Positions 4,348-53,790 of a stretch of 59,019 nt of DNA are shown here, in pieces; positions within the stretch are counted from its first letter, which is position 1, and every line of letters starts with the position of its first letter. Where the stretch lies: positions 1-59,019 of IMG/VR virus record IMGVR_UViG_3300042344_000344; one strand, written 5' to 3'. The position numbers were made by a program, and so were the translations under genes. The notes below the pieces were generated by a model. The model had not been told where the DNA came from. It did no database searches and saw only the letters and a list, made by a program, of their open reading frames with translations. This DNA is from a virus.

Positions 4348-4519
4348 CGTCTGTCTCCAAGTAATACTCTTTGAGCTTCGGATCCGTGATCGACGGGTAC
4401 TCGCGCGTGGTGAATCGAAAATGGCAAACCGTACACTCCCTCCGACGACGCGTTCCACCGTCCGCGTTCTGGTACACGGTGGTCACTTGAGTGTTACCGC
4501 CACACTTTACACATTTCAT
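4319..4519 (-). CDS. Second NrdR-like zinc-ribbon protein
   Basis: A 66-residue protein: MKCVKCGG at the N-terminus, then GGTRRRRECTVCHFRFTTRE, followed by a short acidic, Thr-rich tail. The two CxxC pairs, the RRRR stretch before the second pair and the FTTRE end match the NrdR zinc ribbon closely; the ATP-cone is missing. ATG at 4517-4519 overlaps the DatZ stop (ATGA), with AGGAG eight bases upstream inside datZ, so it is translated coupled to DatZ. NrdR controls ribonucleotide reductase genes, so a link to dNTP supply during Z-DNA synthesis is plausible (inference). A longer start at 4537 is less well supported. Confidence 0.72.
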   Translation of the reverse strand: MKCVKCGGNTQVTTVYQNADGGTRRRRECTVCHFRFTTREYPSITDPKLKEYYLETDVDTDTPPVI

Positions 4520-5064
4520 ATTCCGATCTCCTCGCACACGCGGCGCACCGCGAAGTCAATATCCAATTCCTCGAAAGTCCCGTGCCACTTCTGCACACAG
4601 CGGTCGAGTGACGCCTCAAGACCCGATTGAACATCGAGTGCGTTCTGCCCGATCCCGTGGTCATGCAGGAACCAAATCGCCTCGATCAAGTCCGCGATCT
4701 CCACGTACATTTCGATCGGTGTTCCAGCTACCCGACGCTTATCGGCAATGTACCCTGGGTCCACGACCTCTTCGGACTGGTCGATAATGTCCTGCCCTCC
4801 CACCTGTCTCAACACCCGCTTGTAGGGCGTCGGGGTGTCCCCGGTGCGGACCTCGACCATGTCGTGCGAGAGCGACCAGTGCATCAGCCTCAACGCGTAT
4901 TGAGGGTCGAGCAACTGCTTGTCCCTGCAGTGTCGGGCCAGTTGGCCGACGATGAGGGTAACGTTAAAATGATGCTCCGCTAGATTCTGGGTGCGCGAGA
5001 CGTTGACGATCTGCCACCGCTTGACGTGCGAAGCGCGGAGCTGTTCGGCTAAAGAAAGACCCAT
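4516..5064 (-). CDS. datZ: DatZ: HD-domain dATP triphosphohydrolase
   Basis: A 182-residue HD-domain protein of the YfbR/DatZ type. Metal-binding and catalytic positions are visible: H31/H32 in AEHHFNV, H67-D68 with E71 in SHDMVEVRTGDTPTP, and D125 in EIADLIEAI. In cyanophage S-2L and relatives, DatZ removes dATP (and dADP/dAMP) so that adenine is kept out of phage DNA. Length matches S-2L DatZ (about 175). The assignment over generic YfbR rests mainly on its operon with PurZ, MazZ and the DpoZ-type polymerase. It overlaps the zinc-ribbon gene downstream (ATGA). SD AAGG immediately precedes the ATG. Confidence 0.88.
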   Translation of the reverse strand: MGLSLAEQLRASHVKRWQIVNVSRTQNLAEHHFNVTLIVGQLARHCRDKQLLDPQYALRLMHWSLSHDMVEVRTGDTPTPYKRVLRQVGGQDIIDQSEEVVDPGYIADKRRVAGTPIEMYVEIADLIEAIWFLHDHGIGQNALDVQSGLEASLDRCVQKWHGTFEELDIDFAVRRVCEEIGI

Positions 5065-5070
5065 CCTTAG

Positions 5071-5283
5071 TTACCTTATCGCTTTAAGACGCTCGAGCCT
5101 GTCTATGATCTGCCCACTCTCTAGGGGTTCGAAATTCTCGAACTCGAAGTGGTCCACGGCACGGCTCAGCGCCTGATTCCATATTTCTCGCACGAACTCC
5201 CTGGTGTGCGAGTCCTGTTCGCCTAGTAACTCACCAAATCGGCGAGAATACCAGATATCGAATACCTCATTACGGTTTTTCAT
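5071..5283 (-). CDS. Small protein between mazZ and datZ (70 aa)
   Basis: Begins within the last codons of mazZ (14-nt overlap) and ends six bases before the datZ start, so it is part of the same transcript and probably coupled. The product is charged and helical (WYSRRFGELLG, FVREIWNQALSRAV, IIDRLERLKAIR). No family recognised. Its fixed place inside the Z cassette makes an accessory role in Z metabolism worth considering, but nothing in the sequence shows it. Confidence 0.65.
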   Translation of the reverse strand: MKNRNEVFDIWYSRRFGELLGEQDSHTREFVREIWNQALSRAVDHFEFENFEPLESGQIIDRLERLKAIR

Positions 5284-5788
5284 CTCGGGTATGCCTCATA
5301 ATACGGGTTTGAGAGTCCACGGTCCAAGTGCGTCCAACGTTAATCGCCATCTTCTCGGTTACTGCCTTGTGAATATCAATGCCGTTCATCGTCGCCAAAT
5401 CGAGGAGAAGAATCATAATATCGGCGAATTCCGCCGCTGCCTTCGGGTCTCGGGCGTACTCACCCACCTCTTCATAGAGCTTTAGAAGAATATCGGGTGT
5501 TCGGCGATTCGGGAACACCTCATCGGCCCAAGTGGTCACCACCTGCTGCAGCCGACGAATGTCCGCGCCGCTGCGTCGAGCAAAAGCGTTAACCGAGCGC
5601 ACGGTGAGGTCCGCGTTCTTCTCGCAGTTCCCGAGCACGCCGTTGTACTGGTGTTTCACTTCGAAGTTCGCCACCGCTGCACCGTTAGCATCAATGACCA
5701 CCATATCGTTCCCCGGGTGTATGCTCCAGGGAAGGGGGTTCTGTTCGTGCGTGTGCAGCAGCGAGTTCATGATAAATTCATTAGACAT
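5270..5788 (-). CDS. mazZ: MazZ: MazG-like (d)GTP pyrophosphohydrolase
   Basis: A 172-residue protein. The C-terminal half is a MazG-like domain: KLYEEVGEY supplies E106, E107 and E110, and EFADIMILLLD supplies E120 and D123, followed by VTEKMAINVGRTW. MazZ of Z phages converts dGTP/GTP to dGMP/GMP plus pyrophosphate, feeding dGMP to PurZ. The first ~75 residues are an extra small domain (PLPWSIHPGNDMVVIDANG ... DLTVRSVNAFA) of a kind found in many phage proteins. The gene starts three bases after the purZ stop, with GGAG inside purZ as SD. Confidence as MazZ rests on motif plus operon context. Confidence 0.87.
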   Translation of the reverse strand: MSNEFIMNSLLHTHEQNPLPWSIHPGNDMVVIDANGAAVANFEVKHQYNGVLGNCEKNADLTVRSVNAFARRSGADIRRLQQVVTTWADEVFPNRRTPDILLKLYEEVGEYARDPKAAAEFADIMILLLDLATMNGIDIHKAVTEKMAINVGRTWTVDSQTRIMRHTRDEKP

Positions 5789-5791
5789 CTT

Positions 5792-6907
5792 TTAAGCTCC
5801 AGCCTTGTTGCGGAATTTGTAGCGCTGCCATTTGGATACGATCTCTTTACGTCTCGCCGTGTAGTTCTCACCCTCGGACAGCAGCACCACCGAGTGGATA
5901 TCGGGACCGAGACCCAGCCATTTTACCCTAGCGCCGGTCTCTTCAATAGAGTTCACGATATGGAGCAGGTATTGCTCATCCTGCACGTAATTCGCGAAGT
6001 TCAGAAACACCTCGCTCGCGCCCGACAGGTCGATCGCCTCGCGGATCTGGTCGCGGCTGAACGTGAAAATGCGCCTCGGGAGCTTGGTCACCGTGGTGAG
6101 TTCGATCGGCTGGCCGATTTCCTCGAATGAGATCTCCTTTTGGTCCAGGTGCGCCGGTCCGCTGTACCCCACCTGCCTACCCTCCGAATCGTACCGGTTC
6201 GCCACCCGGATCGGATACGTACGCGCTGTACCGATCACGCGGCACGAAGCCTCGTTGAAGAGTGTGGCCGGGATCCCACAGTCGGCCAGGATTTGGAAGG
6301 TGCTCACATCCCGCGAGGTGGTGTAGGGGTAGAAGCCGTGATACATGGAAAGGCCCACGCCCTGTGCACCTTCGATCAAGATATGCTCCGAATCTCGAAT
6401 CGCTCGTTGGTACTGCGCGGTGGTGCACACCATAGACGCAAGCTCCAGGAAGTCCTTCGCGACGGCGGGTTTGTTCGGCTGACGACGGATCCGGGAAATC
6501 ATCGCCGCACCCACACCCTTCTTGGTCGAGCCGATCGCCGTCATGCTTTGCGCCTCTTCCTCCAAGTGCTCCTCGGTCACCACCGCTGCATGCGGATGGA
6601 TAAGGATCTGGATATTTTTCGCGTCGATTATATCCTTGCACTGTTCGATCTCGGCCAGGAGCTGCGCCGGATTAATCACCGAGCCTGGGCCCAGCAACAC
6701 CCTACGCAGGTAGGGGGCGACGATTCCGTTCGCCAAATGTGTATGCACGAATTTACGCCCTTTGGCGTCAATGAACGTATGCCCCGCGTTGGGTGCCCAC
6801 GCGGTGATCACCGTGTCGTACCCCTCGTAGGTTGCCAGGGTGCCGACGATCAGCCCCTTGCCTGTGCTGCCAAATTGAAGGTCAATGACCAAATCGATTT
6901 TCTTCAT
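5792..6907 (-). CDS. purZ: PurZ: N6-succino-2-amino-2'-deoxyadenylate synthase
   Basis: A 371-residue PurA homologue that condenses dGMP with aspartate to give dSMP, precursor of dZMP. The P-loop-like segment reads LQFGSTGKGL, where PurA has GDEGKGK: Ser14 stands at the catalytic Asp (E. coli D13), the hallmark separating PurZ from PurA. Other family signatures remain: NAGHTF, THLANGI, IGSTKKGVGAAM, EGAQGVGLSMYHGFYPYTTS, and the late GLGPDI segment. It is shorter than bacterial PurA (about 430). The start codon overlaps the polymerase stop (ATGA) with AAAGG as SD. The product requires host PurB (lyase) and host kinases to become dZTP; neither is encoded in this window. Confidence 0.93.
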   Translation of the reverse strand: MKKIDLVIDLQFGSTGKGLIVGTLATYEGYDTVITAWAPNAGHTFIDAKGRKFVHTHLANGIVAPYLRRVLLGPGSVINPAQLLAEIEQCKDIIDAKNIQILIHPHAAVVTEEHLEEEAQSMTAIGSTKKGVGAAMISRIRRQPNKPAVAKDFLELASMVCTTAQYQRAIRDSEHILIEGAQGVGLSMYHGFYPYTTSRDVSTFQILADCGIPATLFNEASCRVIGTARTYPIRVANRYDSEGRQVGYSGPAHLDQKEISFEEIGQPIELTTVTKLPRRIFTFSRDQIREAIDLSGASEVFLNFANYVQDEQYLLHIVNSIEETGARVKWLGLGPDIHSVVLLSEGENYTARRKEIVSKWQRYKFRNKAGA

Positions 6908-8742
6908 CCTTTTGCCTCGTACCAGTCTTCACCCAAGCCCCAATCACAGGTAATCGGCACCCGGAGCTTGATCGGGCAATCGATTCCATCGAATGTAGTG
7001 TAGATCTGCGCGATCTTGTCCGCGTGATCCAGCGAGTCCTTATCGAGCGAGATCCCGACCTCGTCGTGCACGGACAGCAGCAGCCGTCCCACCCCGTGAC
7101 CGGTGAGATAACGGTGCAGCTCGATGAGCTTCATTTTCATGCAGTCGGCGGAAGTCGCTTGGTAAATCAGCCCCGACGCCTTGTGCACGAATTGCCCACC
7201 TGGGAACCGAATATGCCGCCCCATAATCGAGTGCACGTACCCGCGCTCTTTGGCGATCGAACTCGCCTTGTTCGCCATATTCCGCATCCCGGGGTTCGCC
7301 GCATGGTACCGCTCGAAGAGTTCCATCGCCTCGGGTCCCGCCTTCAGGTACAGATTCCCATTCGGCCCGGTCTCCTCCGTGTAGGGCAGTCCGCACTCTT
7401 GGGCCAGTCGCCCGGACCCCATGTTGAAAGCGAGTCCGAGATTAATGGCCTTCGAGGAGGGTCCCCCCGCGTATTGCGCGTTCCTCGGGATGCCGGTCAT
7501 GTCGGAGACCAATTGGTGAAAATCCAGGTTCGGATTCTCGCGGTAGGCCTCCAGAATGGACGGTACCTGCCCGTAATGGTTCGCGACCCGAAATTCGAAC
7601 TGCGACCAATCGAGACCTAGCCATTTCGCGCCGTGATCCGCCTTGAAGATCGGACGCACGAGCGATTTGATCGCCACATCCCGCGACGGGATTTGCTGCA
7701 GCGCAGGATTGGTGATCGAGAGTCGTCCGGTGCCGGTCCCCGCTTCCGAATCGTTCTTGGTCTGGTTATAATTGCAGTGAATCACCCCGTCCTGTTGGTG
7801 TCCGAGGATATGACCCTGAATGAAGGTGTCTCGGGTCTTGAGCATTTTGCGGAGGTCAAGAATCATCTTCGCCGCCGGATGCTTCATGCGACGTAGACAA
7901 TCGGCATCGATCGACGCCTTGCCGCCGTCGGTCTTCCCGGCCCGGGTGCCATCGATCAGGTACCACTCATTGTCCTCACCCAGGGTCGGCTTGAATAGCT
8001 GCGCGATCGATCCGGAAGGGTTCGGGTTGATCTCGAACCCGGCCTCCCTATTAAGATCCCGCTGCATATCGTTGATGCGCTTCGTGAGGTGACGAGAGGC
8101 CCTCTCGGCCATATCGACGTCGACCCGCACTCCCTCGGTCTCCATGTCGATAATAACGGGCATCAGATCCCGCTCGAGCCTGTGCACTCGATGAAGATTC
8201 TGCTTCTCGATCTCGCTCCGCTGCCACAGGTATAGCTGCCGGGTGACTACCGCATCCTGGATTGCATACCGCGCCACGACCTCCTGAGGAGCGCGTGAAA
8301 TGTTCGGCATCTGCGCGTTGCGTGTAGCACGACCCCCAAACAGCTTCGCCAGTTCATCGTAGATCTCCGTGTCTTTCTGCGCCCCGACGTACTTCCGTGC
8401 CAAAAAATCGAGTCCATAAGTCGGCTCATGCTCGTTGATTAGCGCCGCCCGAATCATCGTACAATCGATCCGATCGGTCGGGATTCCGACTCGGGCTTCG
8501 CGCAGGAAGTGCAGGTCGAACTTGAAATTATGTCCGACCCAGACGCCCACGCGATCCTCGGCGATCAGGTCGACCATCCAATCCAGGATCTTCGGAGTCG
8601 CCCGTACGTCCCAATACCCAGCGGTGCCATCGGGAAGTGCGATAGAGACCCCGAAAACATGGTCCTCCCACCACTTGAGCCCGGTGGTCTCGGTATCTAC
8701 CACCAAGTAGGGGATCTGGCCGTCAATGCGCGGGATATTCAT
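6904..8742 (-). CDS. dpoZ: DpoZ: family A DNA polymerase with 3'-5' exonuclease
   Basis: A 612-residue DNA polymerase. The DEDDy exonuclease is intact: VVDTETTG (ExoI), GHNFKFD (ExoII), YAIQDAV (ExoIII). Polymerase motifs: A, LDWSQFEFRV; B, SSKAINLGLAFNMGSG; C, LSVHDEVG. There is no 5' nuclease domain. DpoZ enzymes of Z phages are of this architecture, and their exonuclease discriminates against A opposite T. In motif B the Lys (E. coli K758) is kept, but the positions of R754/R755 read Gly-Pro, F762 is Leu and Y766 is Phe. Start taken as ATG 8740-8742, overlapping the upstream stop (TGATGA), in place of a TTG one codon earlier. First of the dpoZ-purZ-mazZ-datZ run. Confidence 0.92.
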   Translation of the reverse strand: MNIPRIDGQIPYLVVDTETTGLKWWEDHVFGVSIALPDGTAGYWDVRATPKILDWMVDLIAEDRVGVWVGHNFKFDLHFLREARVGIPTDRIDCTMIRAALINEHEPTYGLDFLARKYVGAQKDTEIYDELAKLFGGRATRNAQMPNISRAPQEVVARYAIQDAVVTRQLYLWQRSEIEKQNLHRVHRLERDLMPVIIDMETEGVRVDVDMAERASRHLTKRINDMQRDLNREAGFEINPNPSGSIAQLFKPTLGEDNEWYLIDGTRAGKTDGGKASIDADCLRRMKHPAAKMILDLRKMLKTRDTFIQGHILGHQQDGVIHCNYNQTKNDSEAGTGTGRLSITNPALQQIPSRDVAIKSLVRPIFKADHGAKWLGLDWSQFEFRVANHYGQVPSILEAYRENPNLDFHQLVSDMTGIPRNAQYAGGPSSKAINLGLAFNMGSGRLAQECGLPYTEETGPNGNLYLKAGPEAMELFERYHAANPGMRNMANKASSIAKERGYVHSIMGRHIRFPGGQFVHKASGLIYQATSADCMKMKLIELHRYLTGHGVGRLLLSVHDEVGISLDKDSLDHADKIAQIYTTFDGIDCPIKLRVPITCDWGLGEDWYEAKG

Positions 8743-9017
8743 CAAAATGGGATTTCGTCGTCTATATCGTCGAAATCCGTCGCCGCGTTCTTGCGACCCG
8801 TGTTCCCGCGATTCGGCGCATCCTTCGGGGAGAGCTTGATCGAGAAGTAACGCTTTCCCTCGATCTTGGACCCGGGCTTGCCGGTATTGACCCAGGCGGA
8901 TACCCAGAAGTCTCGGCCCTCGACGTTGAGCGATCCGGTGAACTCGGGGTGCGAGTCCGTGGTGCGATTCTCGTTCCGCATCAGCAGCCCGGAATTGGTG
9001 TTGTCGTACTGTTTCAT
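8742..9017 (-). CDS. Small protein with SSB-like acidic C-tail
   Basis: A 91-residue protein: beta-rich core (FTGSLNVEGRDFWVSAWVN ... KRYFSIKLSP) and a disordered Gly/Asn/Asp linker ending DDIDDEIPF. The last residues copy the conserved bacterial SSB tail (D-D-D-I-P-F), by which SSB recruits replication and repair proteins. It is too short for a full classical OB-fold SSB. It may be a minimal OB fold that binds ssDNA or a mimic that competes for SSB partners. It is co-transcribed with, and overlaps, the polymerase, and has its own promoter immediately upstream. RBS ATAGAGGA. Confidence 0.68.
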   Translation of the reverse strand: MKQYDNTNSGLLMRNENRTTDSHPEFTGSLNVEGRDFWVSAWVNTGKPGSKIEGKRYFSIKLSPKDAPNRGNTGRKNAATDFDDIDDEIPF

Positions 9018-9073: not shown

Positions 9074-10491
9074 TTATCTAGGTTATAGCCATTGTAGCCC
9101 TCCACGATATCCAGTACGTCTTTGCTTCGCGTTAGCGCCACATACCACACCCGGATCTCGTCATCCGGCTTAGCATGAGCACTGTCCGCCACGCGATTCG
9201 TCATATCCGTAAGTACGATGACGCGATCCGCCTCATGGCCTTTAGCTGCGTGAATAGTGGAGAGTCGAATAGTAGGCTCCACATCGATGTCGACCTCCTG
9301 GTAGTAATCGATGACACGGTGCGGCATTTCGATCGCAATGTAGAAAGGGGACGCGACGATCGCCATGTAATCGTTTCTTTCAAGCGCTGCCTTTGTCTCT
9401 GCTGATCCCACTGCAAAGAGAGCCGATCGATCAGAGTCTGATAGACGTTTTCCGTCGCGAATTTTGTTGTATGATCGAAGGCCAATGGCATACCGATTCT
9501 GGAACATTCCCGGACGGCCCGACTCCCGAACGTAGGGGATGCGGCGGTCGATAAGCGCGTTTTCAGCTTCACGCAGGATTGAATGCGTCCGTGCCAAAAC
9601 CAGCGTATCCTCGCCGTGTTCAACATCAATCGACGCCATTGACCCATGGTTCCGTACTGTGCCTGGGCGTCCACAAGAATCGAACTCCTTATCCACGCGG
9701 AAAAGGACTCGACGAATGAGAGACTGGGACTTCTGGTGCACTGCAACAGGAAGTCGATGCGAGAGCGAGAGCACAACGCTATCACCCTTGTGCTTCGCGC
9801 AGAATTTTGCCATACCGTGTGGATCAGCGCCCGACCAAGCATATATTGCTTGGTCATCATCCCCCGCGACAAAGACTTGATGTGCGCGTTTTGCGAGCCG
9901 CTCAATAACACGCCACTGCAGAGGTGAAAGGTCTTGTGCCTCGTCGACGAATAGGACCTCAATTCCCTGTCGAACAGCTCCGGCGCTGGCCCTCTCGAGC
10001 ATGTCGGTGAAGTCGTAGTAGCCGTAGGTCTTCTTCCAGTTCGCGTACGCCGAGACGAACATTTCATATTCTGCACGAGTGCCCGGACGATCCGAAATCT
10101 CGTAGACTTCGGAAGGGTGACTGAAGGTGTTTCGCGCATAGTTCAACAGATCCAAGTAGGCGTCCCCATCGGTGCGCTCTTCATCGTCCTCGGGGGACTT
10201 GCCGACGATCGGAATACCGGTGACTTTCGAGAATTCACGCAGCTTAATATGGTCCACCACCTGGGCTTGCTTCAATCCCAAGGAGCGAAACGCCATCGCG
10301 TGAATCGTGGATACATTATCGGACCTCTTCAGACCGAGCCTGGATAACGCCTCACTCGCCGCCGCACGGGTGAACGACAGAAACGCTATCCGCTCGGCCT
10401 GGACACCGGTCTCGCGCGTGTGCTGCACTAATCGCAGCAACTCCGTGGTCTTACCGGTGCCAGGAGGACCGTAGATGGCCCGAACGTGCAT
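9070..10491 (-). CDS. UvrD/Rep-type SF1 DNA helicase
   Basis: A 473-residue superfamily 1A helicase, shorter than UvrD (about 720) and lacking most of the 1B/2B insertions. Motifs: I, YGPPGTGKTT (residues 7-16); Ia, FLSFTRAAASEAL; II, VLFVDEAQDL; III, VAGDDDQAIYAWSG; IV, LSLSHRLP; V, STIHAAKGHEADRVIVL; VI, WYVALTRSKDVL. This is the probable replicative or recombination helicase, unwinding 3'-5' for the polymerase encoded next. The start overlaps the previous stop (TAATG). ATPase residues are all present. Confidence 0.9.
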   Translation of the reverse strand: MHVRAIYGPPGTGKTTELLRLVQHTRETGVQAERIAFLSFTRAAASEALSRLGLKRSDNVSTIHAMAFRSLGLKQAQVVDHIKLREFSKVTGIPIVGKSPEDDEERTDGDAYLDLLNYARNTFSHPSEVYEISDRPGTRAEYEMFVSAYANWKKTYGYYDFTDMLERASAGAVRQGIEVLFVDEAQDLSPLQWRVIERLAKRAHQVFVAGDDDQAIYAWSGADPHGMAKFCAKHKGDSVVLSLSHRLPVAVHQKSQSLIRRVLFRVDKEFDSCGRPGTVRNHGSMASIDVEHGEDTLVLARTHSILREAENALIDRRIPYVRESGRPGMFQNRYAIGLRSYNKIRDGKRLSDSDRSALFAVGSAETKAALERNDYMAIVASPFYIAIEMPHRVIDYYQEVDIDVEPTIRLSTIHAAKGHEADRVIVLTDMTNRVADSAHAKPDDEIRVWYVALTRSKDVLDIVEGYNGYNLDN

Positions 10492-11240
10492 TAGTACTCG
10501 GTTTCGCCAACGTCAGCCGCATCGTAGTCATTGCTGACCTTCACGCCGCCGGACTTGATTGTGGTGAAGAGCTGCAGCGCCCGGTCGTAAAGCGGTTTAC
10601 TCACGAACCCTAACGGTGCAATGTTGAAGTTGTAGTAAGACTCGTTCCGTGCGTTAGTCTCTTCGACCGAAGACAGCGTGTAAGCACGAGCAAACGAATC
10701 CATGTTGGTCATGCGTACCAACGAATTCCAACGCTTGCTCACCTTCATCTTGGACTTGCTCATCGAGAGCACGGCCTCGGTGACCTGCCCCAGGTGGTGC
10801 ACGAGTACAAAATGCTGCGCGGTATCGATAGCCTCAAGTCCATCCTCGCCGAGCTTCGAGATTTCGGCCAACGCGTCCTCGCGGGTGTTGAATGCACCAC
10901 GGAACCCGTTACTGCCACCACCCCCGAGCTTGCGATCCTTCCAAATCAGGTACTGCTTGGTGTAGAACACCGGAATAACGGTGACCGACTCGCCGTAAAG
11001 CTCGCGGGTGACGTTATTGAACAGCATCCCCTCTTCGGCCCCCTCGATGTAGGAGGAGTCCTTTTTGTTACGCGCAGGAGAGAGCGCTTGAATCACCTCG
11101 ATTCGAGGAATGATCATATCGTCCGTCGTAATGTTCTCCGTCCCACGCGTGGTGCCGGTCGGGAGCCAATCGGGAGCGTCCGTAGTGATAATATCGAATT
11201 CGCTCTTCGCGGTAGTTACTAACTCTTTAGCTTTCGCCAT
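10491..11240 (-). CDS. Conserved replication-module protein, possible ssDNA-binding protein
   Basis: A 249-residue protein. After a disordered N-terminus comes MIIPRIEVIQALSPARN, then an EGMLFNNVTRELYGESVTVIPVFY segment, a Gly-rich loop, a helical middle, and an acidic C-terminus (DYDAADVGETEY). Proteins with this order are frequent in podophage replication modules and are often annotated as ssDNA-binding or recombination-associated. I cannot verify that from sequence alone. Acidic tail and location between helicase and primase genes fit an SSB-like role. ATG 11238-11240 has GGAG nine bases upstream. Confidence 0.62.
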   Translation of the reverse strand: MAKAKELVTTAKSEFDIITTDAPDWLPTGTTRGTENITTDDMIIPRIEVIQALSPARNKKDSSYIEGAEEGMLFNNVTRELYGESVTVIPVFYTKQYLIWKDRKLGGGGSNGFRGAFNTREDALAEISKLGEDGLEAIDTAQHFVLVHHLGQVTEAVLSMSKSKMKVSKRWNSLVRMTNMDSFARAYTLSSVEETNARNESYYNFNIAPLGFVSKPLYDRALQLFTTIKSGGVKVSNDYDAADVGETEY

Positions 11241-11261
11241 TTGCAATTACTCCATTACAAT

Positions 11262-12148: not shown

Positions 12149-13883
12149 AGATATCTTCGTTTGCATCGTTAATGCTCCGGCGCACGTACTCGGAGACGTC
12201 CTTTTTACCGCGTAACGCATCGAGCACGATCTCGTCTACCGACCCCTCGCACACCAGATCGATGTAGGTCACCGACTTCGTCTGCCCTATCCGGTGCGCC
12301 CGATCTTCGGACTGGTCGCGATCGGTGAAGGAGAACGAATTCGAGAAATAAATCACGGTCTCTGCCCGGGTCATATTGAGCCCCACCCCACCGGTCGCGG
12401 CGTTACCGACCAAAAATCGCGCCTCACCCCGCTGAAACGCCTGGACGTTATCGTCCCGCTGCTGCTCCCCGATCCCGCCGTGAATCTCAACCACCGATCG
12501 CCGCCCGTAAGTCTCGCGTAAGGCCTCGCTCACCATCGCGATTTCCTCCAGGAACCGGCACCAGACGATCACCGCGCCCTCGGTCTCCTCAATAATCGCC
12601 TTTAGCTCTTCGACCTTCGGATTCTTACCCGGGATACGACAATGCTCGTACTTGTCCGGGTTGTAAAGGTCAGGATTTCGCTCGTACGCAATGATCCCGC
12701 CACAGATCTCTTGTAGTCTGAGCATTCGCTCGAGCACGGACTTAACGGTGATACCCCGATCTCCAGATACTGCTTTGTCTTCTTTAGAAATCTGTCTATA
12801 TAGTCTTTTTTGCTCATCAGTCATCTGCACTTCGCGCACCGCGAACACCTTCGGTGGTAACTCGGTCAACACCTCGGACTTCCGCACCTGGAAGATGAAG
12901 GGCGAAATTAGCTCGATCAATTCATCGAGATTCTGGTACCCGACGATCTCCTTCCCCTCGTACCCGCCCATCACCGCGTAGCGATTCCGGAACGAATAGA
13001 AATCTCCGATCCCGATTATGTTCGGATCCAGGAATTCGAACTGCATGAACACGTCCATTGGGCCATTCGCCACCGGGGTGCCGGTCATGATGAACCGATA
13101 TTCAGCCTTACGCCCGAGCGAGACACAAGTTTTACTTCTCACCGCCGAGTGATTCTTAATCATATGCGCCTCGTCCACCACCATCGCGGCGCGAGTGGAG
13201 ACCATCAGAAACGCATCGGCATAATTCACCGCTGACCCTGCGGCGAGGGATTCGGTACCGACGATCAAGATCTTGAATTTATCGCCGGTCGTGTTCCAAT
13301 TCTGGAAGAGCTTCGGCTTCGTGGTATCCAGCACCAAGACATCGGCTTCAAAGGGTAGGTGAATGCCGATCTCGCGCTCCCAATTCTTGCGGGTCGTGAA
13401 CTTGGTGACTACGAGCAACCGGTCGACTTTCTGGTCAAGGAAGAGTGCGCCTAAGAGGTCCAGAGAGACCTTCGTTTTCCCTGTACCCATGTCCATATAA
13501 TATGCAAAGACATTCTTGTCGAATGCGCGATTAAGAGCTTCTCTCTGATATGGCCGAGGAGTCGTTCGGAAAGTGTAACCAGCCGGAAACATAGACCCCT
13601 GAACAGGACGGGATTTCTCGAGAGCCGCTTGAGCCGCAGCAGAAGCTCGGTCAGTAAAACAACGGCTTTGAAAAGCCCCGAGTATATATTCAGCATTAGC
13701 ACGGAGTGCAGGAGCAGTCCATACTCTTCGACGAGAATCCCAGCGACGATTAGGAATCTGTCGCACTTTTTCAAGAAGCCAAGGCGGAGAGGAGACGACG
13801 AAGCGTCCGGTTTTGGGATCATAATCAATACTCGTTTCATTAGAATTCGGTGGTAAATTCGGGCTCATCGACCTTGACCTCAT
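12129..13883 (-). CDS. SNF2-like SF2 helicase/ATPase with HARP-like N-terminus
   Basis: A 584-residue DEAH-box translocase. Motif I is MDMGTGKTK (around residues 130-138), motif II VVDEAH (235-240), motif III FIMTGTPVANGP, then the C-terminal RecA lobe with VIVWCRFLEE, ATGGVGLNMT and DRAHRIGQT, the SNF2-family motif VI. The first ~60 residues (DYDPKTGRFVV ... IPNRRWDSRRRVW) resemble the HARP-type domain of annealing helicases such as SMARCAL1. A role in fork remodelling or strand annealing is likely. It overlaps the primase gene by 44 nt; the exact start is uncertain because no SD is ideally placed. Confidence 0.88.
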   Translation of the reverse strand: MRSRSMSPNLPPNSNETSIDYDPKTGRFVVSSPPWLLEKVRQIPNRRWDSRRRVWTAPALRANAEYILGAFQSRCFTDRASAAAQAALEKSRPVQGSMFPAGYTFRTTPRPYQREALNRAFDKNVFAYYMDMGTGKTKVSLDLLGALFLDQKVDRLLVVTKFTTRKNWEREIGIHLPFEADVLVLDTTKPKLFQNWNTTGDKFKILIVGTESLAAGSAVNYADAFLMVSTRAAMVVDEAHMIKNHSAVRSKTCVSLGRKAEYRFIMTGTPVANGPMDVFMQFEFLDPNIIGIGDFYSFRNRYAVMGGYEGKEIVGYQNLDELIELISPFIFQVRKSEVLTELPPKVFAVREVQMTDEQKRLYRQISKEDKAVSGDRGITVKSVLERMLRLQEICGGIIAYERNPDLYNPDKYEHCRIPGKNPKVEELKAIIEETEGAVIVWCRFLEEIAMVSEALRETYGRRSVVEIHGGIGEQQRDDNVQAFQRGEARFLVGNAATGGVGLNMTRAETVIYFSNSFSFTDRDQSEDRAHRIGQTKSVTYIDLVCEGSVDEIVLDALRGKKDVSEYVRRSINDANEDILRRLLS

Positions 13884-15393
13884 ATTCCTCGGTGATTGGG
13901 GCGTACCAGACGTTCAGGGTCTTGCCACCCGGTACGCGAATTTTGTCGTGCGAAGCGTTGCAATCGCGCCGCAACGTCGTCCACAGATCCATGCCAGTCT
14001 GGACCTCGGCCTTGTTACGCTTCAGATACTCGGAGAATGCGGTCCCCCGGAACACCACGCATCGAACCCCGTCGATGACCTGCACGATCGGGATGTTGCG
14101 CAGCAGCGCTTTACGCTCGTTCGTATCCTTGCCGTCCTTGGAGAGATCCGCCTTCTGTACGAACTCGGCGAATTTCGCCTGAACGATCCCCGAGGCGGAC
14201 GCTTCTTTTGGCACCTCGATCGTTCGCAGATTCGGCACCAACGGATCCAGCACCCGAGAGCGCCAATTGTCGAGGGTAATCTTCGGGATGTTGATCTTGA
14301 GGCGCTCGAAAATCAGCGTCCCCATCAGGCTCGGGTCGCGAAGTACCACGGTCGGGATGTTTGAAATCAGCTGCCCATTCACGTGAATACCCCATCTGGG
14401 AGGATCGGACAGGTACTCGATTAACTCCGAGAACTGCGGGAGCGCATCGTGTGCGTCGAGTTCCTTTTTCTCGTCCATCGAGATCCCGAACTCCCGGGTA
14501 ACACAGACCTTCCGATCGCAAAGCGACTTGCAGGGTTCCTCCGCGCACCGATACAGATAGTCGCGACGGGAGGCGGAGCGAATGACCTTTTTCGCTTCGG
14601 CAGCACCCAAGGGCTTATCAAACATCGTCCCGTTGAGCGCTACCGCATCATCGAAGAAGTTATCGGGCCTCGCCCTCTTCAGGTACACGGTGACGTTGTA
14701 CAGCGCTTCATTCCGGGCACCCGACTCGACCCCCGAGTGAATCATCTTCTGGATACAGGGCGGAGCCTCGAGGTGCTCACGAAGCGTGAGTTCAGCCAGC
14801 TGCTCGACGGTGACGCGTTTGCTCTGCGCATACTGCAAGAAGAGATCGAACGAGAGCTTATTGCAGTCGTCATCGAACCCGTACCTGAGCGTATGTTCAG
14901 CGTCGAAATAACAAAGGTTTATCCAGTTCCCCAGCGCCTTCTCGCCACTTGACGTCACGAGCGAATCTTGCTTCGGGAAGATCTCGGTCTTGTGCTTGAT
15001 CCCTAACACGTCCCGCCACGACCCCAACACCCGCCGCACCTGCTTGGCCGGAAGGTATTCTTCGCCGAAGAGATACAAGTGCGCACCCCCGCGCTTGGTC
15101 CGGCACATTACCAGCGGGAGCCTGTACTCGTTGATCTTGGCCTGGAGCGCCTCGAAATCGATATCCTCTGGTGACTCGTGCTTATCGACGTCGATTGCCC
15201 CGAACTTGCAGGTACCACCATCAGTCACCGGTACTATACCTAACCCAATCCCACCTTCCAGGTGCTCGAGGTATTGATCGTTCGTTACCTCACCTTTTAC
15301 CGTCGACATGTTCCCGGACGTCGGATCCCAGCGCCCGTAAGAGCGGAGATTCCCCGAGAATAGATCGGCGAAGTCGTTTACTAACCCTTCCAT
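13840..15393 (-). CDS. Archaeo-eukaryotic-type primase (TOTE-like AEP / PrimPol)
   Basis: A 517-residue protein. The N-terminal domain has AEP signatures: CKFGAIDVDKH (metal-binding D68, D70), TKRGGAHLYLFGEE (catalytic-type H105) and HKTEIFPKQ ... GNWINLCYF, a pattern of the TOTE/REase-associated primase family. A Cys cluster near residue 280 (CAEEPCKSLCDRKVC) could bind zinc. The C-terminal ~200 residues resemble a primase C-terminal/helicase-loader region but carry no Walker motif. It would prime, and perhaps extend, phage DNA. Cyanophage S-2L also uses an AEP PrimPol; here it coexists with DpoZ. First gene of the replication operon, immediately downstream of the 15.4-15.9 kb control region. 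SD AAAGG. Confidence 0.83.
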   Translation of the reverse strand: MEGLVNDFADLFSGNLRSYGRWDPTSGNMSTVKGEVTNDQYLEHLEGGIGLGIVPVTDGGTCKFGAIDVDKHESPEDIDFEALQAKINEYRLPLVMCRTKRGGAHLYLFGEEYLPAKQVRRVLGSWRDVLGIKHKTEIFPKQDSLVTSSGEKALGNWINLCYFDAEHTLRYGFDDDCNKLSFDLFLQYAQSKRVTVEQLAELTLREHLEAPPCIQKMIHSGVESGARNEALYNVTVYLKRARPDNFFDDAVALNGTMFDKPLGAAEAKKVIRSASRRDYLYRCAEEPCKSLCDRKVCVTREFGISMDEKKELDAHDALPQFSELIEYLSDPPRWGIHVNGQLISNIPTVVLRDPSLMGTLIFERLKINIPKITLDNWRSRVLDPLVPNLRTIEVPKEASASGIVQAKFAEFVQKADLSKDGKDTNERKALLRNIPIVQVIDGVRCVVFRGTAFSEYLKRNKAEVQTGMDLWTTLRRDCNASHDKIRVPGGKTLNVWYAPITEEYEVKVDEPEFTTEF

Positions 15394-15419: not shown

Positions 15420-15448
15420 TTGACACCACCTCGGTGGGCTGGTATAAT
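15420..15448 (+). promoter_or_regulatory. Rightward sigma70 promoter, perfect consensus
   Basis: Plus strand: TTGACA (15420-15425), 17-bp spacer, TATAAT (15443-15448). It is the only consensus promoter I see pointing opposite to all genes. It reads into the repeat array at 15496-15745 and then antisense to the last morphogenesis gene. No credible gene lies downstream on this strand. Confidence 0.6.
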
Positions 15449-15475
15449 TATAATACATCTCTCCCCGGAGCACAA
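15447..15475 (-). promoter_or_regulatory. Putative leftward promoter of the replication operon
   Basis: Minus strand: TATAAT (15447-15452) with TTGTGC (15470-15475) 17 bases upstream; -35 matches only three of six. Its -10 overlaps the -10 of the rightward consensus promoter, so the two should exclude each other. Confidence 0.5.
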
Positions 15476-15495: not shown

Positions 15496-15745
15496 GTTCC
15501 ACCGTTCCATCATAATGGAACACAGATGGAACAGTCAGAACCCCCGTCACGTAAGGCCTCCCGGCATCTGTTCCATTGTTCCATGCATATATACGTATAC
15601 CTTGCGTGTTCAGAAACCTGAATATGTATATATATCAGATGGAACGGTGGAACAGAGATACCACTACCTCAGAACGCCCGTCGTACGGGGCCTCGGAGCC
15701 AGTAGGCTGTTCCATCTCCGTTCCATCATAATGGAACAGTGGAAC
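15496..15745. repeat. GTTCCAY half-site array A (12 half-sites)
   Basis: Twelve 7-bp half-sites GTTCCAY or their complement. Module 1: forward at 15496 and 15504, reverse at 15515 and 15526. Module 2: forward at 15570 and 15578, AT-rich centre, reverse at 15639 and 15647. Module 3: forward at 15709 and 15720, reverse at 15731 and 15739. Modules 1 and 3 each span 37 bp and centre on CATAATG. The array lies between the end of the morphogenesis operon and the primase gene. An origin, operator or RNA element are the main options. A near-copy is array B at 52779-53030. Confidence 0.85.
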
Positions 15746-15892
15746 GGTCTCGAGGGGTTCCAGACGGCAACCCTGTCCCACGAGCCACATAGGTCGTTGC
15801 CAGGATAGGGTTCACACGGGTGTGCGAAATGAAGACTGAAAAGAGAGCCTCTCGGAGGCGCTCGAACCCCCGGTGGCTATTAATGTAGCTTA
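15746..15892. other. Rest of the 499-bp noncoding region
   Basis: No credible gene in 15394-15892. Beyond the promoters, array A and the terminator at 15837-15862, bases 15746-15836 show nothing I can interpret. A plus-strand frame through the array (15434-15808) is a translation of the repeats with no SD. Confidence 0.6.
15837..15862 (-). terminator. Rho-independent terminator after the morphogenesis operon
   Basis: Minus-strand hairpin GCCTC-CGA-GAGGC (15847-15859) with flanking pairs, followed by TCTCTTTTC. It lies about 30 bases past the stop of the last structural gene, so it would insulate the replication operon from late transcription. The U-tract is short. Confidence 0.6.
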
Positions 15893-48411: not shown

Positions 48412-50553
48412 TCAATCGTAATCATCATAGTCGAGGTCCTCCGCGTCGAGGTCTTCGGGATCCAGATCTTCATAGCCATACCGCTTTTTAAATTTCTCGA
48501 GGTCGAAAGGCTGTCCGCTTCTCAACGCTCTTTCTTGCGCCGCATTCAACCTATTTCGGTAGGTTAAGCTCGGCATCATTTCCGCGATAGTCATGTCCGT
48601 GTCCCTCGCCGCATCCTTGAGCGTCTTGTACAACTCCGGGTTCGCGGACCTGATTTCTCGCATCACTTGTTTAAGATTATCCTCACCGAAATTGTCGGTG
48701 TATGTCCTAAAGATCTCCAGTGGCCCAGGTGCGCCGAGTTCTTCACCCACCGAATAATACTCACCGGGATCCCTCATCGCGGGAATTTTAACATCCAACA
48801 GCTCTTCGGGATCGACCGCATCCCCGAATTGCTGGGTGACCGCCTTCAAGATCTGCTCGTCACTTTGTCCCAGCTTCAGCCCTTGGGCGATCGCACCCTG
48901 AATGGTCGAAGGCGAGAAGACGGTAGGCTTCATTACGGTCTTGGCCACCTCGGACGCCACGTCCTTCACGGGCTGCATAGCCACCGAGGGCAGTATCCGT
49001 TGCGCGGTTTGGGCAAGTGCGCCCTGCAGCACCTGACGTCTGGACATCGGCGTTTGCGCGACCTTCTCGACCACTTTCTCCACCGAACCCGAGAGGGGGT
49101 CGACCGTGGTCTTCTCGGTCTGGAAGCGCTCCATGTCTTTGGCCGGTACCGGGAGCTTCGACTCCTTGGGACCGCCCAGATCCGGCAACCGCATGAACCC
49201 TCGCCTCGACAGGTCCGGCGTCTTCACACCTTTGGTGAGCAATTCGTCCGCCATTTGCTGCACGGTCTTTTTCGCATCGCCACCCTTCGAGAATCCCTGG
49301 ACCGGCCCGCCGTCTTTGTAGCGACGTTGCCGCACCACGGTGTCCCGAATGATGTCTTTTATTAAGTCGGGGTTCTCGGCGTAGATTCGGTCGATCTGAT
49401 TTAGCAACACCGGTCGCGTGGTGGCGAAGCTACCCTCTTCGAAGGATTTCTGCCACGGAATATTCAGCCCCACATCTTCATCGGAAACCAAACGATTTCC
49501 TTGTCTCAACTGCGCTCGCAGAATCGGGATCTCTGCGGCGTAATCGGGGTCGTAGCCGACCATTTCTAACAACTCGTCACGCTTATTCAGTGCCAGCCGT
49601 GGGTCGGAATAAAAGTATGCCCCACCAACGTGCGCCGGTGGGTAACCCTGGATATTGTTCGCCCCTACATCTCGGTTAGTCATCGCCCCGGTTTTAAGGA
49701 TCCCCGGGAAATCAGAGGTAATGTGCCACCCTGGAACGTCAGCGTTCTGTGGAGCAGGGATCGCACCTACACTGGCCCCGGGTTTACCGAGTTCATCCAA
49801 ACGGCGCACCTTTCGCACTTCCCGATCAATCGACTCACCAAGTGACCTTAAATTACGGGCGGGTGACTCCTGCATTCTTTGCATTTCCTGCGCGGACATC
49901 GGGAGCTTTGGGGGCGATGCACTCGGTGAGGCCGTGACCATTTTCGAAGGTGCGGCACCAGTCTTGATCCCTTTAGTAATAAGCTCTTCCGCCATTTGCT
50001 GCACGGTCTTTCCCTTGACGCCACCACCTCCGGAGTAGGAGTCGAGCGAATCCGTGTAAATCATTCGCCCACCGTCGGACATGTCCGGCGTGGTGTGCTC
50101 GATCATGCCGCCCTCGGCGTACCTGCGAAATCGCCCTTCGGGGACGGTCGCCTCGTGCCGCGCGGCGGGAGGAGCAGGGGGCTTGGCACGTGGACCGGTC
50201 ATCCGGGCCTGTTGCGCTTCGTCCTGCAACCCTTGCTTGATTAACCCCTGCAGCATCAGGTCGGCGTGCTGCCCGTACTGCTTACGGAGATCACCCACGA
50301 ACTGCTCGTACCGGAGCCGATTCACGAAATCCCGCATTTCAGGAGTCTGTGCTGTTTCACGTGGAGCAGCGACCGGGGGACGCATGGCGCGTATCTTGTC
50401 CAACTCCTCGGCCTCGTTTTCGTTCAGGCTCGGTGCGTACATTGCAGCAGTAACCCCGGCTGTGGGCTTGAACGCCGCGAGCGGTCCGGCCAGGGTGAGC
50501 ACGTCCTCGGGGTTGAGATAGTCGCCGATCGTTTTCAGAAGATCATTGGGCAT
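48412..50553 (-). CDS. Large multi-domain protein with internal duplication, ART-like segment and GG motifs (713 aa)
   Basis: Between terminase and portal. Two near-identical units (GKTVQQMAEELITKGIKTG and KKTVQQMADELLTKGVKTP) each follow a Y-x-x-GG motif (RRYAEGGMIEH; RRYKDGGPVQGFSKGG). Between them, residues about 270-385 (GWHITSDFPGILKTGAMTNR, GGAYFYSDPRLALNKRDELL) have the order of ADP-ribosyltransferase-like folds (H, then Y/F strand), with no established catalytic triad. Two Tat-like strings, SRRGFM and SRRQVLQGAL, occur internally. The C-terminus is very acidic. It could be a virion-packaged protein or toxin. I do not recognise the family. Confidence 0.6.
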   Translation of the reverse strand: MPNDLLKTIGDYLNPEDVLTLAGPLAAFKPTAGVTAAMYAPSLNENEAEELDKIRAMRPPVAAPRETAQTPEMRDFVNRLRYEQFVGDLRKQYGQHADLMLQGLIKQGLQDEAQQARMTGPRAKPPAPPAARHEATVPEGRFRRYAEGGMIEHTTPDMSDGGRMIYTDSLDSYSGGGGVKGKTVQQMAEELITKGIKTGAAPSKMVTASPSASPPKLPMSAQEMQRMQESPARNLRSLGESIDREVRKVRRLDELGKPGASVGAIPAPQNADVPGWHITSDFPGILKTGAMTNRDVGANNIQGYPPAHVGGAYFYSDPRLALNKRDELLEMVGYDPDYAAEIPILRAQLRQGNRLVSDEDVGLNIPWQKSFEEGSFATTRPVLLNQIDRIYAENPDLIKDIIRDTVVRQRRYKDGGPVQGFSKGGDAKKTVQQMADELLTKGVKTPDLSRRGFMRLPDLGGPKESKLPVPAKDMERFQTEKTTVDPLSGSVEKVVEKVAQTPMSRRQVLQGALAQTAQRILPSVAMQPVKDVASEVAKTVMKPTVFSPSTIQGAIAQGLKLGQSDEQILKAVTQQFGDAVDPEELLDVKIPAMRDPGEYYSVGEELGAPGPLEIFRTYTDNFGEDNLKQVMREIRSANPELYKTLKDAARDTDMTIAEMMPSLTYRNRLNAAQERALRSGQPFDLEKFKKRYGYEDLDPEDLDAEDLDYDDYD

Positions 50554-51985
50554 AAGGATTCACCCTGCGTGGTCGTTCGTCGTCGTAGTAATCCGGCGCG
50601 ACTTCAGCCGGGTCGATGCGTAAAAAGTCCATGTCTTTGAGCAACCGCAACACCTGCGTGGCCGTGTCGGTCAGGTCGTCGCGCTCGGCCTCGGGGAAAG
50701 AGCAGATCTGGGACACGAGCTTTTCCGCCCAGTCACGCGGCTGGCCCCGGTGCACGACCGATTCGGGAATGTAGACTCGGCCGCAGGCGATGATGTTCGC
50801 CACGATGTGCAGCCGTTGGACCTTGTCGGCTCGCCCCGGATTGTAGCCACGACACGGCACCCCGGCGTAGCGCAAGTCCTGGAGGATCGAAATGCCCGAG
50901 GCTTTCTCCTCGACGAGCACCAAATCGGTCTTTTTACCCGGTTCGCCGTACACGGACTCTTTGTACTCGTTGATCACCCGTGGGCGTAACTCGGGGTAGG
51001 CGAGAAATTCCTCCCAGCAGTCGATCAGCATCACGCAAAGAGGTGAATCCTCACTCGGCCTGAACACTCCCCAGACGGAGCATGCGGTTGGGTCGTTGAT
51101 AGTCTTTTCGGTGTAAGCACAATCGTAGGACTGCACAATGTACATAAAATCGGGGAATGGCCGATCGGAGTCCCAAAGCTTGAACCACTCGCGTTTGACG
51201 ATTCCGTAATCTTCCGGGTCGATGACCTCGGCGTAAAGCTCTTGTCGTCCGAGTCGAGTACCCTCGTACTGGGCGATGATTTCATCACGGAATGTAGGTG
51301 CGAGGTTTCCGAAATTCTCATGCGTGGTCCCTGAGGTAACGAAGACGCGCGGGTTTTCGAGCAGCTCCCGCACGATGGGAATTGGCTTTGGCGTGGTGGT
51401 GACGACACCGCGTGGGCGTTGACCGAGACGAAGCCCGAACATGAGGTTCGACCACATCTCTTTGGCGTTGCGGAATTTCGCCAACTCGTCGACCCAGAAA
51501 AGATCGTGCTGCGGACCGCGCAGGGTCTCAGGGTCGTTGTCCGAGTAGATCGTTGCGATCGCCCCGTTAGGCCACTCGAGTCGGCGCTTGGACGGCACCC
51601 AGTTCGGGCGGTTCGAGGGGTGCGAAATGGCCAGGAGCCCGGATTCGCCCTCGATCATCACGTCCCGGGCGTCCCCCGCGTCTTCGGCGATCAGCGCGAC
51701 GCGTGAAGCAAGCTTTCGTTCCACGTGAAACCGCACGAATTCACCACCACACCGAGTCTTTCCCCACCCACGACCGGCAAGAATGAGCCAGATCGTCCAA
51801 TCCTCACCGGGTGGGACCATCTGGTTGGGTCGAGCCCAGGTCGGCCAGTCGTAGTAAAGCTCCACCACCTCCTGATCGCTCATCTCGGACACAAAATCCG
51901 AGAAATTGTGCGGATCAATCGGGGCTTTCTTCGCCTTGTATCTTCGACTTGGCGACCGCCTGTAATCGCTGGGCAAGTCGATCAC
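50543..51985 (-). CDS. terL: Terminase large subunit
   Basis: A 480-residue packaging motor. Walker A is LAGRGWGKT (residues 69-77), Walker B DLFWVDE (161-167), coupling motif VVTTTPKP. The nuclease domain has the RNase H-like acids: SYDCAYTE, VLVEEKAS and DDLTDTA. It cuts and translocates phage DNA into the procapsid. Start is GTG at 51983-51985, with GAGGGA five bases upstream. It overlaps terS by 71 bases and the next gene by 11. Confidence 0.95.
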   Translation of the reverse strand: MIDLPSDYRRSPSRRYKAKKAPIDPHNFSDFVSEMSDQEVVELYYDWPTWARPNQMVPPGEDWTIWLILAGRGWGKTRCGGEFVRFHVERKLASRVALIAEDAGDARDVMIEGESGLLAISHPSNRPNWVPSKRRLEWPNGAIATIYSDNDPETLRGPQHDLFWVDELAKFRNAKEMWSNLMFGLRLGQRPRGVVTTTPKPIPIVRELLENPRVFVTSGTTHENFGNLAPTFRDEIIAQYEGTRLGRQELYAEVIDPEDYGIVKREWFKLWDSDRPFPDFMYIVQSYDCAYTEKTINDPTACSVWGVFRPSEDSPLCVMLIDCWEEFLAYPELRPRVINEYKESVYGEPGKKTDLVLVEEKASGISILQDLRYAGVPCRGYNPGRADKVQRLHIVANIIACGRVYIPESVVHRGQPRDWAEKLVSQICSFPEAERDDLTDTATQVLRLLKDMDFLRIDPAEVAPDYYDDERPRRVNPYAQ

Positions 51986-52610
51986 GGAGTCCCTCGATGT
52001 TAACGTTCGTGTTAAGTTGACCCGACACCGCGACGTTCACGTCTTTGGCTCGGAATTTCGCGTCGTACCCCATCAGGGTAAACTGCAGCAGGGAATCAGA
52101 ATACTTTTTGATCGTTTCGCCCGTCTTCACACCCTGGTGTACCAAGGGCTCGTCGTGTCCGATTACCGAGCGTCGGTAGGCCTCGGCTTTCATGGTGTCG
52201 ACCATTTCGAGTTGGATGTCCTCCATCAGACTATCGAACATCGGATGATCACGACGCCAAACGGTCAACGCACCCCGACTGACTTCGGCGGACGTGTACG
52301 CGTGTCTTAAAGAAAATTTCGCGTTCTCGGGTCCGTCTCGGAATTCGGCCAGGATTTGCAGCATGCGGTAGGCTTTCGTGCGTTCAAAACGCCATAGGCG
52401 TCCGACACCCTCAACACCCGGGACACAATAAACTAACGACTCGGCGTCTTCTTCGACCCCTCGTTCCTTAAAACGAACACGGTCCTGCTTCACCATGTCA
52501 TAAAGCATCGCGTACGTGATACCCGCGCGGCGCTCGTACTCACGCAGTGTTTCTTCACCCACCGCGTCGACGTCCACCACCGGCAAAGGTTCGATTTTCA
52601 CTCCAGCCAT
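51915..52610 (-). CDS. terS: Terminase small subunit
   Basis: A 231-residue protein with an N-terminal DNA-binding part (LREYERRAGITYAMLYDMVK) and a C-terminal part of the phage TerS family (MKAEAYRRSVIGHDEPLVHQ, GETIKKYSDSLLQFTLMGYD). It recognises packaging sites and stimulates TerL. ATG at 52608-52610 is chosen; the open frame reaches 52823 but its first 71 residues are translation of the repeat region. There is no clear SD for this start. First gene of the late operon, behind the promoter at 53122-53150. Confidence 0.85.
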   Translation of the reverse strand: MAGVKIEPLPVVDVDAVGEETLREYERRAGITYAMLYDMVKQDRVRFKERGVEEDAESLVYCVPGVEGVGRLWRFERTKAYRMLQILAEFRDGPENAKFSLRHAYTSAEVSRGALTVWRRDHPMFDSLMEDIQLEMVDTMKAEAYRRSVIGHDEPLVHQGVKTGETIKKYSDSLLQFTLMGYDAKFRAKDVNVAVSGQLNTNVNIEGLRDRLAQRLQAVAKSKIQGEESPD

Positions 52611-52638: not shown

Positions 52639-53030
52639 GTTCCACAACTGTTCCACCAAGCATTTCGCGAATCTCTTTCATGCATCTGCGTACGAGGCCG
52701 AGGTGCAGCCCTGCGTGGTGAGTGACGATACCTTGTCGTCTGGAAGTCTGCAGGTGTAGTACGGGTGTGGTCATACCCGTTCCATCGTTCCACCAAGATG
52801 GAACAGCAATGGAACAACCCCACTTGCCCAAAGGCCCCGTCCCTCGGGGCTTCTCTTGATGTGCCCTCTTCTGTTCCACCGTTCCATCTATATCCCCCCC
52901 ATATTCAGGTTTTCGAACACGAGATATATACGGGTATATGCATGGAACAATGGAACAATTGCCGCTTTGGTCCGTCGTACGGGGCTTCTGACCGTTCCAT
53001 CTGTGTTCCATCATGATGGAACAATGGAAC
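52639..53030. repeat. GTTCCAY half-site array B (14 half-sites)
   Basis: Two forward half-sites (52639, 52650), then an array built like array A. Module 1: forward 52779, 52787, reverse 52798, 52809. Module 2: forward 52873, 52881, AT-rich centre, reverse 52942, 52950. Module 3: forward 52994, 53005, reverse 53016, 53024. The intervening CGTCGTACGGGGC segment also occurs in array A. The array lies in the leader of the terminase transcript. Span of the three modules is 252 bp, almost equal to array A (250 bp). Confidence 0.85.
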
Positions 53031-53121: not shown

Positions 53122-53150
53122 ATCTTACCACGGCTGGTGCAGCGTGTCAA
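53122..53150 (-). promoter_or_regulatory. Promoter of the packaging/morphogenesis operon
   Basis: Minus strand: TTGACA (53145-53150), 17-bp spacer ending GCCGTGG, TAAGAT (53122-53127; five of six). It overlaps the end of the nuclease gene. Transcripts would carry a ~500-nt leader containing array B before terS. Confidence 0.75.
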
Positions 53151-53586
53151 CTAGTCGTCGCGTTTGTGTTTCACGTGAAGTCGTTTGGTCCACACACAAC
53201 CCCCGCATCCGCAACGTCTGGAGCGTCTCCTCGTGTGGCGCCTGCATTTCGACCAGCCGTACAGCTTCGTGCCCGGGGATCAGGTAGAACTCTTGGCGCT
53301 CCAGGACCTGCAGCCCCAGGAAGCACCAAGCCCCGTGCCGGTGTGCCGAAACCGCCCAATTGCGTTGCCCAGCGGTCCACTTCGGGAGGCGGAGCGGCGT
53401 GCCGGGGCGTTTGGGTAGATCGGTGAGGACCTTGAGTTCGATCCAGCCCGAGACCGCGCGAAGCTTGTAGAGCGCGAACCACACGTCCGGGGTGTCGCGT
53501 CCGACCTCGTTCTCGACGCGTTGCGCGAACCAATGGCCCCCGAGGCGAAGGTCCAGCCAGCCCCACAAGTTCTTTTCCGCGCTCAT
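53125..53586 (-). CDS. PD-(D/E)XK-type nuclease candidate
   Basis: A 153-residue protein: WFAQRVENEVGRDTPDVWFA followed by SGWIELKVLTDL, giving a D...E-x-K active-site pattern, then GQRNWAVSAHRHGAWCFLGL. The order matches small phage VRR-NUC/Holliday-junction-resolvase-like nucleases. A role in processing branched DNA before packaging is plausible given its place beside the terminase genes. ATG at 53584-53586 overlaps the upstream stop (ATGA); the 30-base-longer frame lacks a good start signal. Confidence 0.7.
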   Translation of the reverse strand: MSAEKNLWGWLDLRLGGHWFAQRVENEVGRDTPDVWFALYKLRAVSGWIELKVLTDLPKRPGTPLRLPKWTAGQRNWAVSAHRHGAWCFLGLQVLERQEFYLIPGHEAVRLVEMQAPHEETLQTLRMRGLCVDQTTSRETQTRRLVDTLHQPW

Positions 53587-53768
53587 CGCGACGCCTTCAA
53601 TCCGGCGAGCTTCCACAGCCTCTTGACCTGCGTTTCAGTCACGGCCCACCCGTCCAGTTTTAGCATCGCGGCGATTTTGCGGTACCCGCAGGTGGGGTAC
53701 AGCCGAGCTTTTTCTCTCATTTCCTGGTCGACCCAGGACTGGTCCATCGCCGAAAGTCTTTTTCTCAT
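53583..53768 (-). CDS. Short HTH protein resembling an IS3 transposase segment
   Basis: A 61-residue protein with WVDQEMREKARLYPTCGYRK and IAAMLKLDGWAVTETQVKRL. G-Y-R-K-I followed by W-x-V-x-x-x-x-V-x-R-L-x-x-x-x-G-L is the helix-turn-helix region of IS3-family OrfB transposases. No DDE catalytic part is present. It may be a domesticated DNA-binding fragment. ATG 53766-53768 has AAGGAG five bases upstream; a start 15 bases earlier would contain this SD and is rejected. Confidence 0.65.
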   Translation of the reverse strand: MRKRLSAMDQSWVDQEMREKARLYPTCGYRKIAAMLKLDGWAVTETQVKRLWKLAGLKASR

Positions 53769-53790
53769 GTAAACTCCTTGCATTTGGGGT

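Follow-up and report, generated by a model that had tools for sequence, protein, structure and literature searches.

The 59-kb phage record analysed here (the window, the whole stretch of 59,019 nucleotides; its main genes are minus-strand) contains two arrays of short half-sites, A and B, of which B is the reverse complement of A. With moderate confidence, we read them as two iteron control regions, probably replication origins, both bound by one protein of the replication module.

Layout and orientation of the two arrays

Array A separates the end of the late operon from the primase gene, and array B lies between the last early gene and the gene of the terminase small subunit, terS (Table 1). 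The initial annotation had placed one array at the head of the replication operon and the other at the head of the packaging operon, which is right, and had described B as repeating the three-module plan of A at nearly the same length. The plan, with four sites in each module, and the lengths both stand. Each array exhibits 12 GTTCCA/TGGAAC half-sites, with start-to-start spacings of (8,12,11) - 43 - (8,62,8) - 61 - (11,12,8) in A (250 bp) and (8,12,11) - 63 - (8,62,8) - 43 - (11,12,8) in B (252 bp). The real maximum is 12 copies of one hexamer per 260 bp, while 60 shuffled windows reach at most 4-6. In both arrays, the (8,62,8) unit of module 2 encloses an AT-rich centre; module 2 of B is TATA-rich, with a conserved AAACCTGAATATG. 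Promoter-like sites (consensus matches only) adjoin both arrays, and divergent relatives exhibit TTGATG-17-TATAAT at the primase-directed one (by inspection). The interval first assigned to array B, 52639-53030, does contain the array, but it starts at an extra half-site pair 129 bp outside the core and about 30-45 bp upstream of the terS ATG. This pair is retained in close relatives only.

Table 1. Positions of the arrays, their parts and the associated genes in the window
Feature	Position	Strand	Remarks
HD phosphohydrolase, DatZ kind	4516-5064		2-aminoadenine gene
dATP/dGTP pyrophosphohydrolase, MazZ kind	5270-5788		2-aminoadenine gene
purZ	5792-6907		2-aminoadenine gene
Family-A polymerase	6904-8745		2-aminoadenine gene set
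AEP-type primase (phrog_21866)	13840..15393	-	first gene of replication module, beside array A
Promoter-like TTGACA-17-TATAAT (12/12)	15420..15448	+	reads into array A, away from primase; retained in most relatives
Promoter-like TTGTGC-17-TATAAT	15447..15475	-	reads to primase
Array A core	15496..15745		12 half-sites, three modules; partner of array B
13th GTTCCA	15757..15762	+	late side of array A
Terminator-like hairpin with T tail	15847..15859	-	end of leftward late operon, just before array A
terS, terminase small subunit (phrog_4044)	51915..52610	-	ATG at 52610
Extra half-site pair	52639..52655		starts 52639, 52650 (offset 11); between array B and terS
Array B core	52779..53030		12 GTTCCA/TGGAAC half-sites, three modules; inverted copy of array A
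B module 1	52779..52815		half-sites 52779, 52787 (GTTCCA); 52799, 52810 (TGGAAC)
GC hairpin GCCCCGTCCCTCGGGGC	52834..52850		B gap 1
B module 2	52873..52956		two direct pairs (52873, 52881; 52943, 52951) flanking 62-bp AT-rich centre
CGTCGTACGGGGC segment	52973..52985	+	hairpin element, B gap 2
B module 3	52994..53030		half-sites 52994, 53005 (GTTCCA); 53017, 53025 (TGGAAC)
Promoter-like TTGACA-17-TAAGAT	53122..53150	-	reads through array B to terS; retained in close relatives

The orientation differs from that first described. Only reverse-complementing B brings the gap lengths of the two arrays into agreement (61/63 and 43/43), and an alignment with the half-sites masked scores z = 16.7 inverted against 5.2 direct; array B is thus the reverse complement of A, and the direct alignment was dropped. 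In the inverted alignment, conservation extends to the linkers, the 62-bp centre among them; they are therefore homologous, so that the earlier statement that the rest of the sequence has diverged is wrong. The initial annotation had noted that A and B share CGTCGTACGGGGC; each array has one copy of this 13-mer, and the window has no other. However, it belongs to a near-palindromic GC hairpin element (CCCCGTC..ACGGGG) found in several gaps of both arrays, and hence neither fixes the orientation nor gives evidence of a parallel layout.

Of the 19 genomes tested, 16 fit the inverted orientation better (the window, G003, G004, G010, G012, G019, G020, G025, G026, G032, G034, G048, G049, G050, G051 and SH-Ab 15497), with a lowest z of 4.8 in G048. 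In the other three, VLCpiS6a, PMBT28 and Kokobel2, the scores are weak and the arrangement is direct or undecided, suggesting that inversion may not be essential.

Conservation and switching of the half-sites

Since a blastn search with array A against phage records gave no match, we turned to searches with short patterns and de novo hexamers. The pattern of one module retrieved 38 stretches in 31 IMG/VR contigs, and 80 of the 585 IMG/VR relatives found were taken in; the exact module pattern was found in none of the bacterial and archaeal genomes searched. In the relatives, arrays are always located upstream of the primase gene (site A) or terS (site B). Both are present in all 14 relatives holding both regions (primase at least 68% identical), site B of G049 being weak, and a single array, or an unrelated sequence at the second site, was looked for and is absent in every near-complete close relative. 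Among the more distant relatives (primase 40-46% identical), arrays were found in some and went unrecognised in most by our hexamer criterion, which requires exact hexamers and misses degenerate sites. By the same criterion JeffCo has no array. Phage 023Pt_psg01 (L075) exhibits a cluster of GTGCCA/TGGCAC half-sites in 9-bp steps at 13575-13784, possibly a distant array of the same kind. The 62-bp AT-rich centre bears a hairpin in many relatives; most outgroup arrays hold a TGTC..GACA hairpin in their centre, which is lost in the clade of the window.

The half-site columns are far more conserved across relatives than linkers or flanks, with column identities of 0.85 (A) and 0.91 (B) against 0.44 (A) and 0.61 (B) for the linkers. 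This supports the selection on half-sites proposed earlier, and is the pattern that a sequence read by a protein on DNA should exhibit. Compensating changes between opposed half-site bases, another point raised for checking, did not appear: across the relatives, 0 pairs are compensated and 64 are broken. This indicates that the half-sites are read as DNA and not as RNA stems.

The half-site itself differs between phages. It is GTATCC in G032, L109 and L110, TATCAC in G034, GGTTGC in SH-Ab 15497 and GGTTCC in Kokobel2. L111 mixes GTTCCA with GTATCC, and G050 mixes GTTCCA with GTTACA in both A and B; these mixed arrays resemble intermediates of a switch in recognition sequence. Wherever a genome examined has two arrays, both exhibit the same half-site type or the same mixture. 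Full matching would arise by chance with p = 6.6e-5 (shuffling of nine collapsed lineages), a value for which the collapsing of lineages and the naming of types involved judgement. The common factor suggested by the initial annotation is thereby strongly supported, and one trans-acting factor per phage reading both arrays would be the simplest cause of the matching. Gene conversion between A and B could contribute, and would still require a factor that follows.

Association with the replication module and a candidate binder

SH-Ab 15497, VLCpiS6a and Kokobel2, distant phages with PurZ and 2-aminoadenine, possess two arrays each. The replication/Z module is all that they have in common with the window; the terminase and structural genes are not shared. 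MW202545 has the late module in common with it (capsid 91% identical); an array was looked for there and not found. The PurZ phages phiVC8 and S-2L, with other replication genes, exhibit no comparable array. These patterns indicate that the arrays belong to the replication module, and not to the terminase or to Z-DNA as such. In the window, their neighbours in this module are genes for the AEP primase, an SNF2-type (SNF2-like) helicase and a UvrD helicase. As judged from sequence, the association favours a role in starting replication over a switch of transcription only. A protein of the histone-deacetylase superfamily (PF00850; 3455-4288, minus strand) is encoded beside the 2-aminoadenine genes and is retained in relatives.

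In the mechanism that we propose, a single sequence-specific protein, encoded in the replication module of the phage, would recognise A and B as double-stranded DNA. This initiator would most likely occupy the half-sites to either side of the 62-bp AT-rich centre and, once bound, would help to open the centre for the neighbouring AEP primase and the helicases. Since early and late promoters lie next to the arrays, the bound complex would probably also modulate both operons; control of the two by the same complex is plausible. We infer origin activity, the identity of the binder and any coupling of the two arrays. GC skew exhibits no turn or sign change at A or B, a change that would be supporting, not obligatory, for an origin.

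The leading candidate for binding the arrays is the C-terminal domain of the primase, predicted to adopt a winged-helix-like fold (mean pLDDT 87.5). A fold comparison matched the model weakly to SCCmec Cch and SaPIbov1 Rep, with every E-value at or above 0.001. In the phages with GTATCC half-sites, a search for the binder by gene replacement found no core gene replaced; their primase has a one-residue insertion in the wing, which phylogeny alone could explain and which is only suggestive as a pointer to the primase. No Rep-type initiator (DUF927 or D5-type helicase) was found just upstream of an array, and searching PDB sequences with profiles of the three small replication proteins yielded no useful match. 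A 251-aa protein (10491-11246, minus strand) is similar to Pam3 gp34, and its predicted fold weakly resembles a chain of the phiC31 recombination directionality factor (RDF).

More speculatively, these lytic-type 2-aminoadenine phages might use a two-site origin, in which two full, usually mirror-oriented iteron arrays flanking the late genes are jointly engaged by one initiator, possibly the AEP primase through a C-terminal winged helix, and the pair couples early and late promoters to the start of replication. The recognition sequence would then switch in the initiator and the two arrays together, with G032, G050 and L111 as mixed intermediates. We offer this extended picture tentatively.

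The literature searched includes no paper describing these arrays or an origin in these phages, and the papers searched do not describe how copying of Z-DNA starts in PurZ phages. The arrays provide a specific and testable candidate for this start, in phages amenable to laboratory culture. The natural series of recognition switches, with its mixed intermediates, could identify the binding protein, and could show the joint change of an initiator and of 20 or more sites at two loci.

Related systems and alternative explanations

The closest known kinds of region are the PICI/SaPI origins (e.g. SaPIbov1 rep-ori) and ori with crr of phage P4. PICI origins are described as iterons flanking an AT-rich centre (PMC6092414), and SaPI initiators read their iterons with a C-terminal domain (PMC7581432). 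Like these origins, the window arrays, as candidate origins, have half-sites that flank an AT-rich centre (module 2), are element-specific and travel with the replication module. Unlike them, they occur twice in a genome, each array also having GC hairpins and additional four-site modules, and in place of a Rep-type initiator helicase, none of which was found, there are a separate AEP primase and SNF2-like and UvrD helicases.

In the satellite phage P4, ori and crr are separated cis regions with the same short repeats, read by the alpha protein, a primase-helicase, and crr is not known to be a mirror copy of ori. The window similarly has two separated cis regions sharing short repeats, but it is a 59-kb PurZ phage, and each of its regions is a complete array built from the same modules. 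The met boxes of MetJ and the heptads of pSM19035 omega are tandem half-sites at 7-8 bp offsets, direct and inverted, which are bound cooperatively and act at several promoters. The window arrays resemble them in their tandem half-sites at similar offsets in direct and inverted order, and differ in their 11- and 12-bp steps and the 62-bp AT-rich centre. No ribbon-helix-helix regulator of the MetJ/omega kind was identified for them.

The foremost alternative is a pure transcription switch, with one phage repressor or activator acting on both arrays to time the early and late operons, and no role in replication. The position of the arrays beside promoters at both operon heads also fits plain transcription control. 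The extra pair upstream of terS sits where a terS promoter would be, and the second array of Kokobel2 and VLCpiS6a lies just before a TTGACA-17-TATAAT promoter (by inspection). However, twelve to fourteen sites around an AT-rich centre exceed the needs of an operator, and the distribution of the arrays tracks the replication module. Moreover, we found no dedicated small regulator whose conservation accompanies that of the arrays; many relatives lack the HTH gene at 53583-53783. We regard such a switch as possible but unlikely.

A protein might instead join both arrays into a loop (P4 ori/crr-like, centromere-like or recombination-like), with pairing as the main function. There are always two copies, in mirror orientation and facing each other in most genomes tested, which would suit such a structure; the three genomes with apparently direct or undecided arrays do not, their scores being weak. 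The late segment is inverted in none of nine relatives with both regions, which makes site-specific inversion unlikely. Pairing as the main function appears improbable to us.

An RNA leader, with the inverted half-sites forming transcript stems of an attenuator or antiterminator, is very unlikely. Promoter-like sites read into both arrays and hairpins can be drawn, but the broken pairs described above, the one sequence common to all half-sites (not needed for stems) and the lack of any match in an Rfam search largely refute it. Least probable of all is that the terminase small subunit recognises the arrays as packaging (pac/cos) sites: array B is directly upstream of terS, but the same design occurs beside non-homologous terminases, is repeated at the primase and is missing from MW202545 with this late module, so that module swapping, in which the arrays do not follow terS across phages, largely refutes this explanation.

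Two minor observations concern the window as a whole. Positions 1-130 repeat its last ~130 bases except for a mismatch near position 8, implying that the record is circular or terminally redundant. Three near-matches to the bacterial parS sequence TGTTTCACGTGAAACA (2-3 mismatches; 50353-50368, 51717-51732 and 53167-53182) all lie within 3 kb around the terminase genes, against 0.23 expected by chance in the window.
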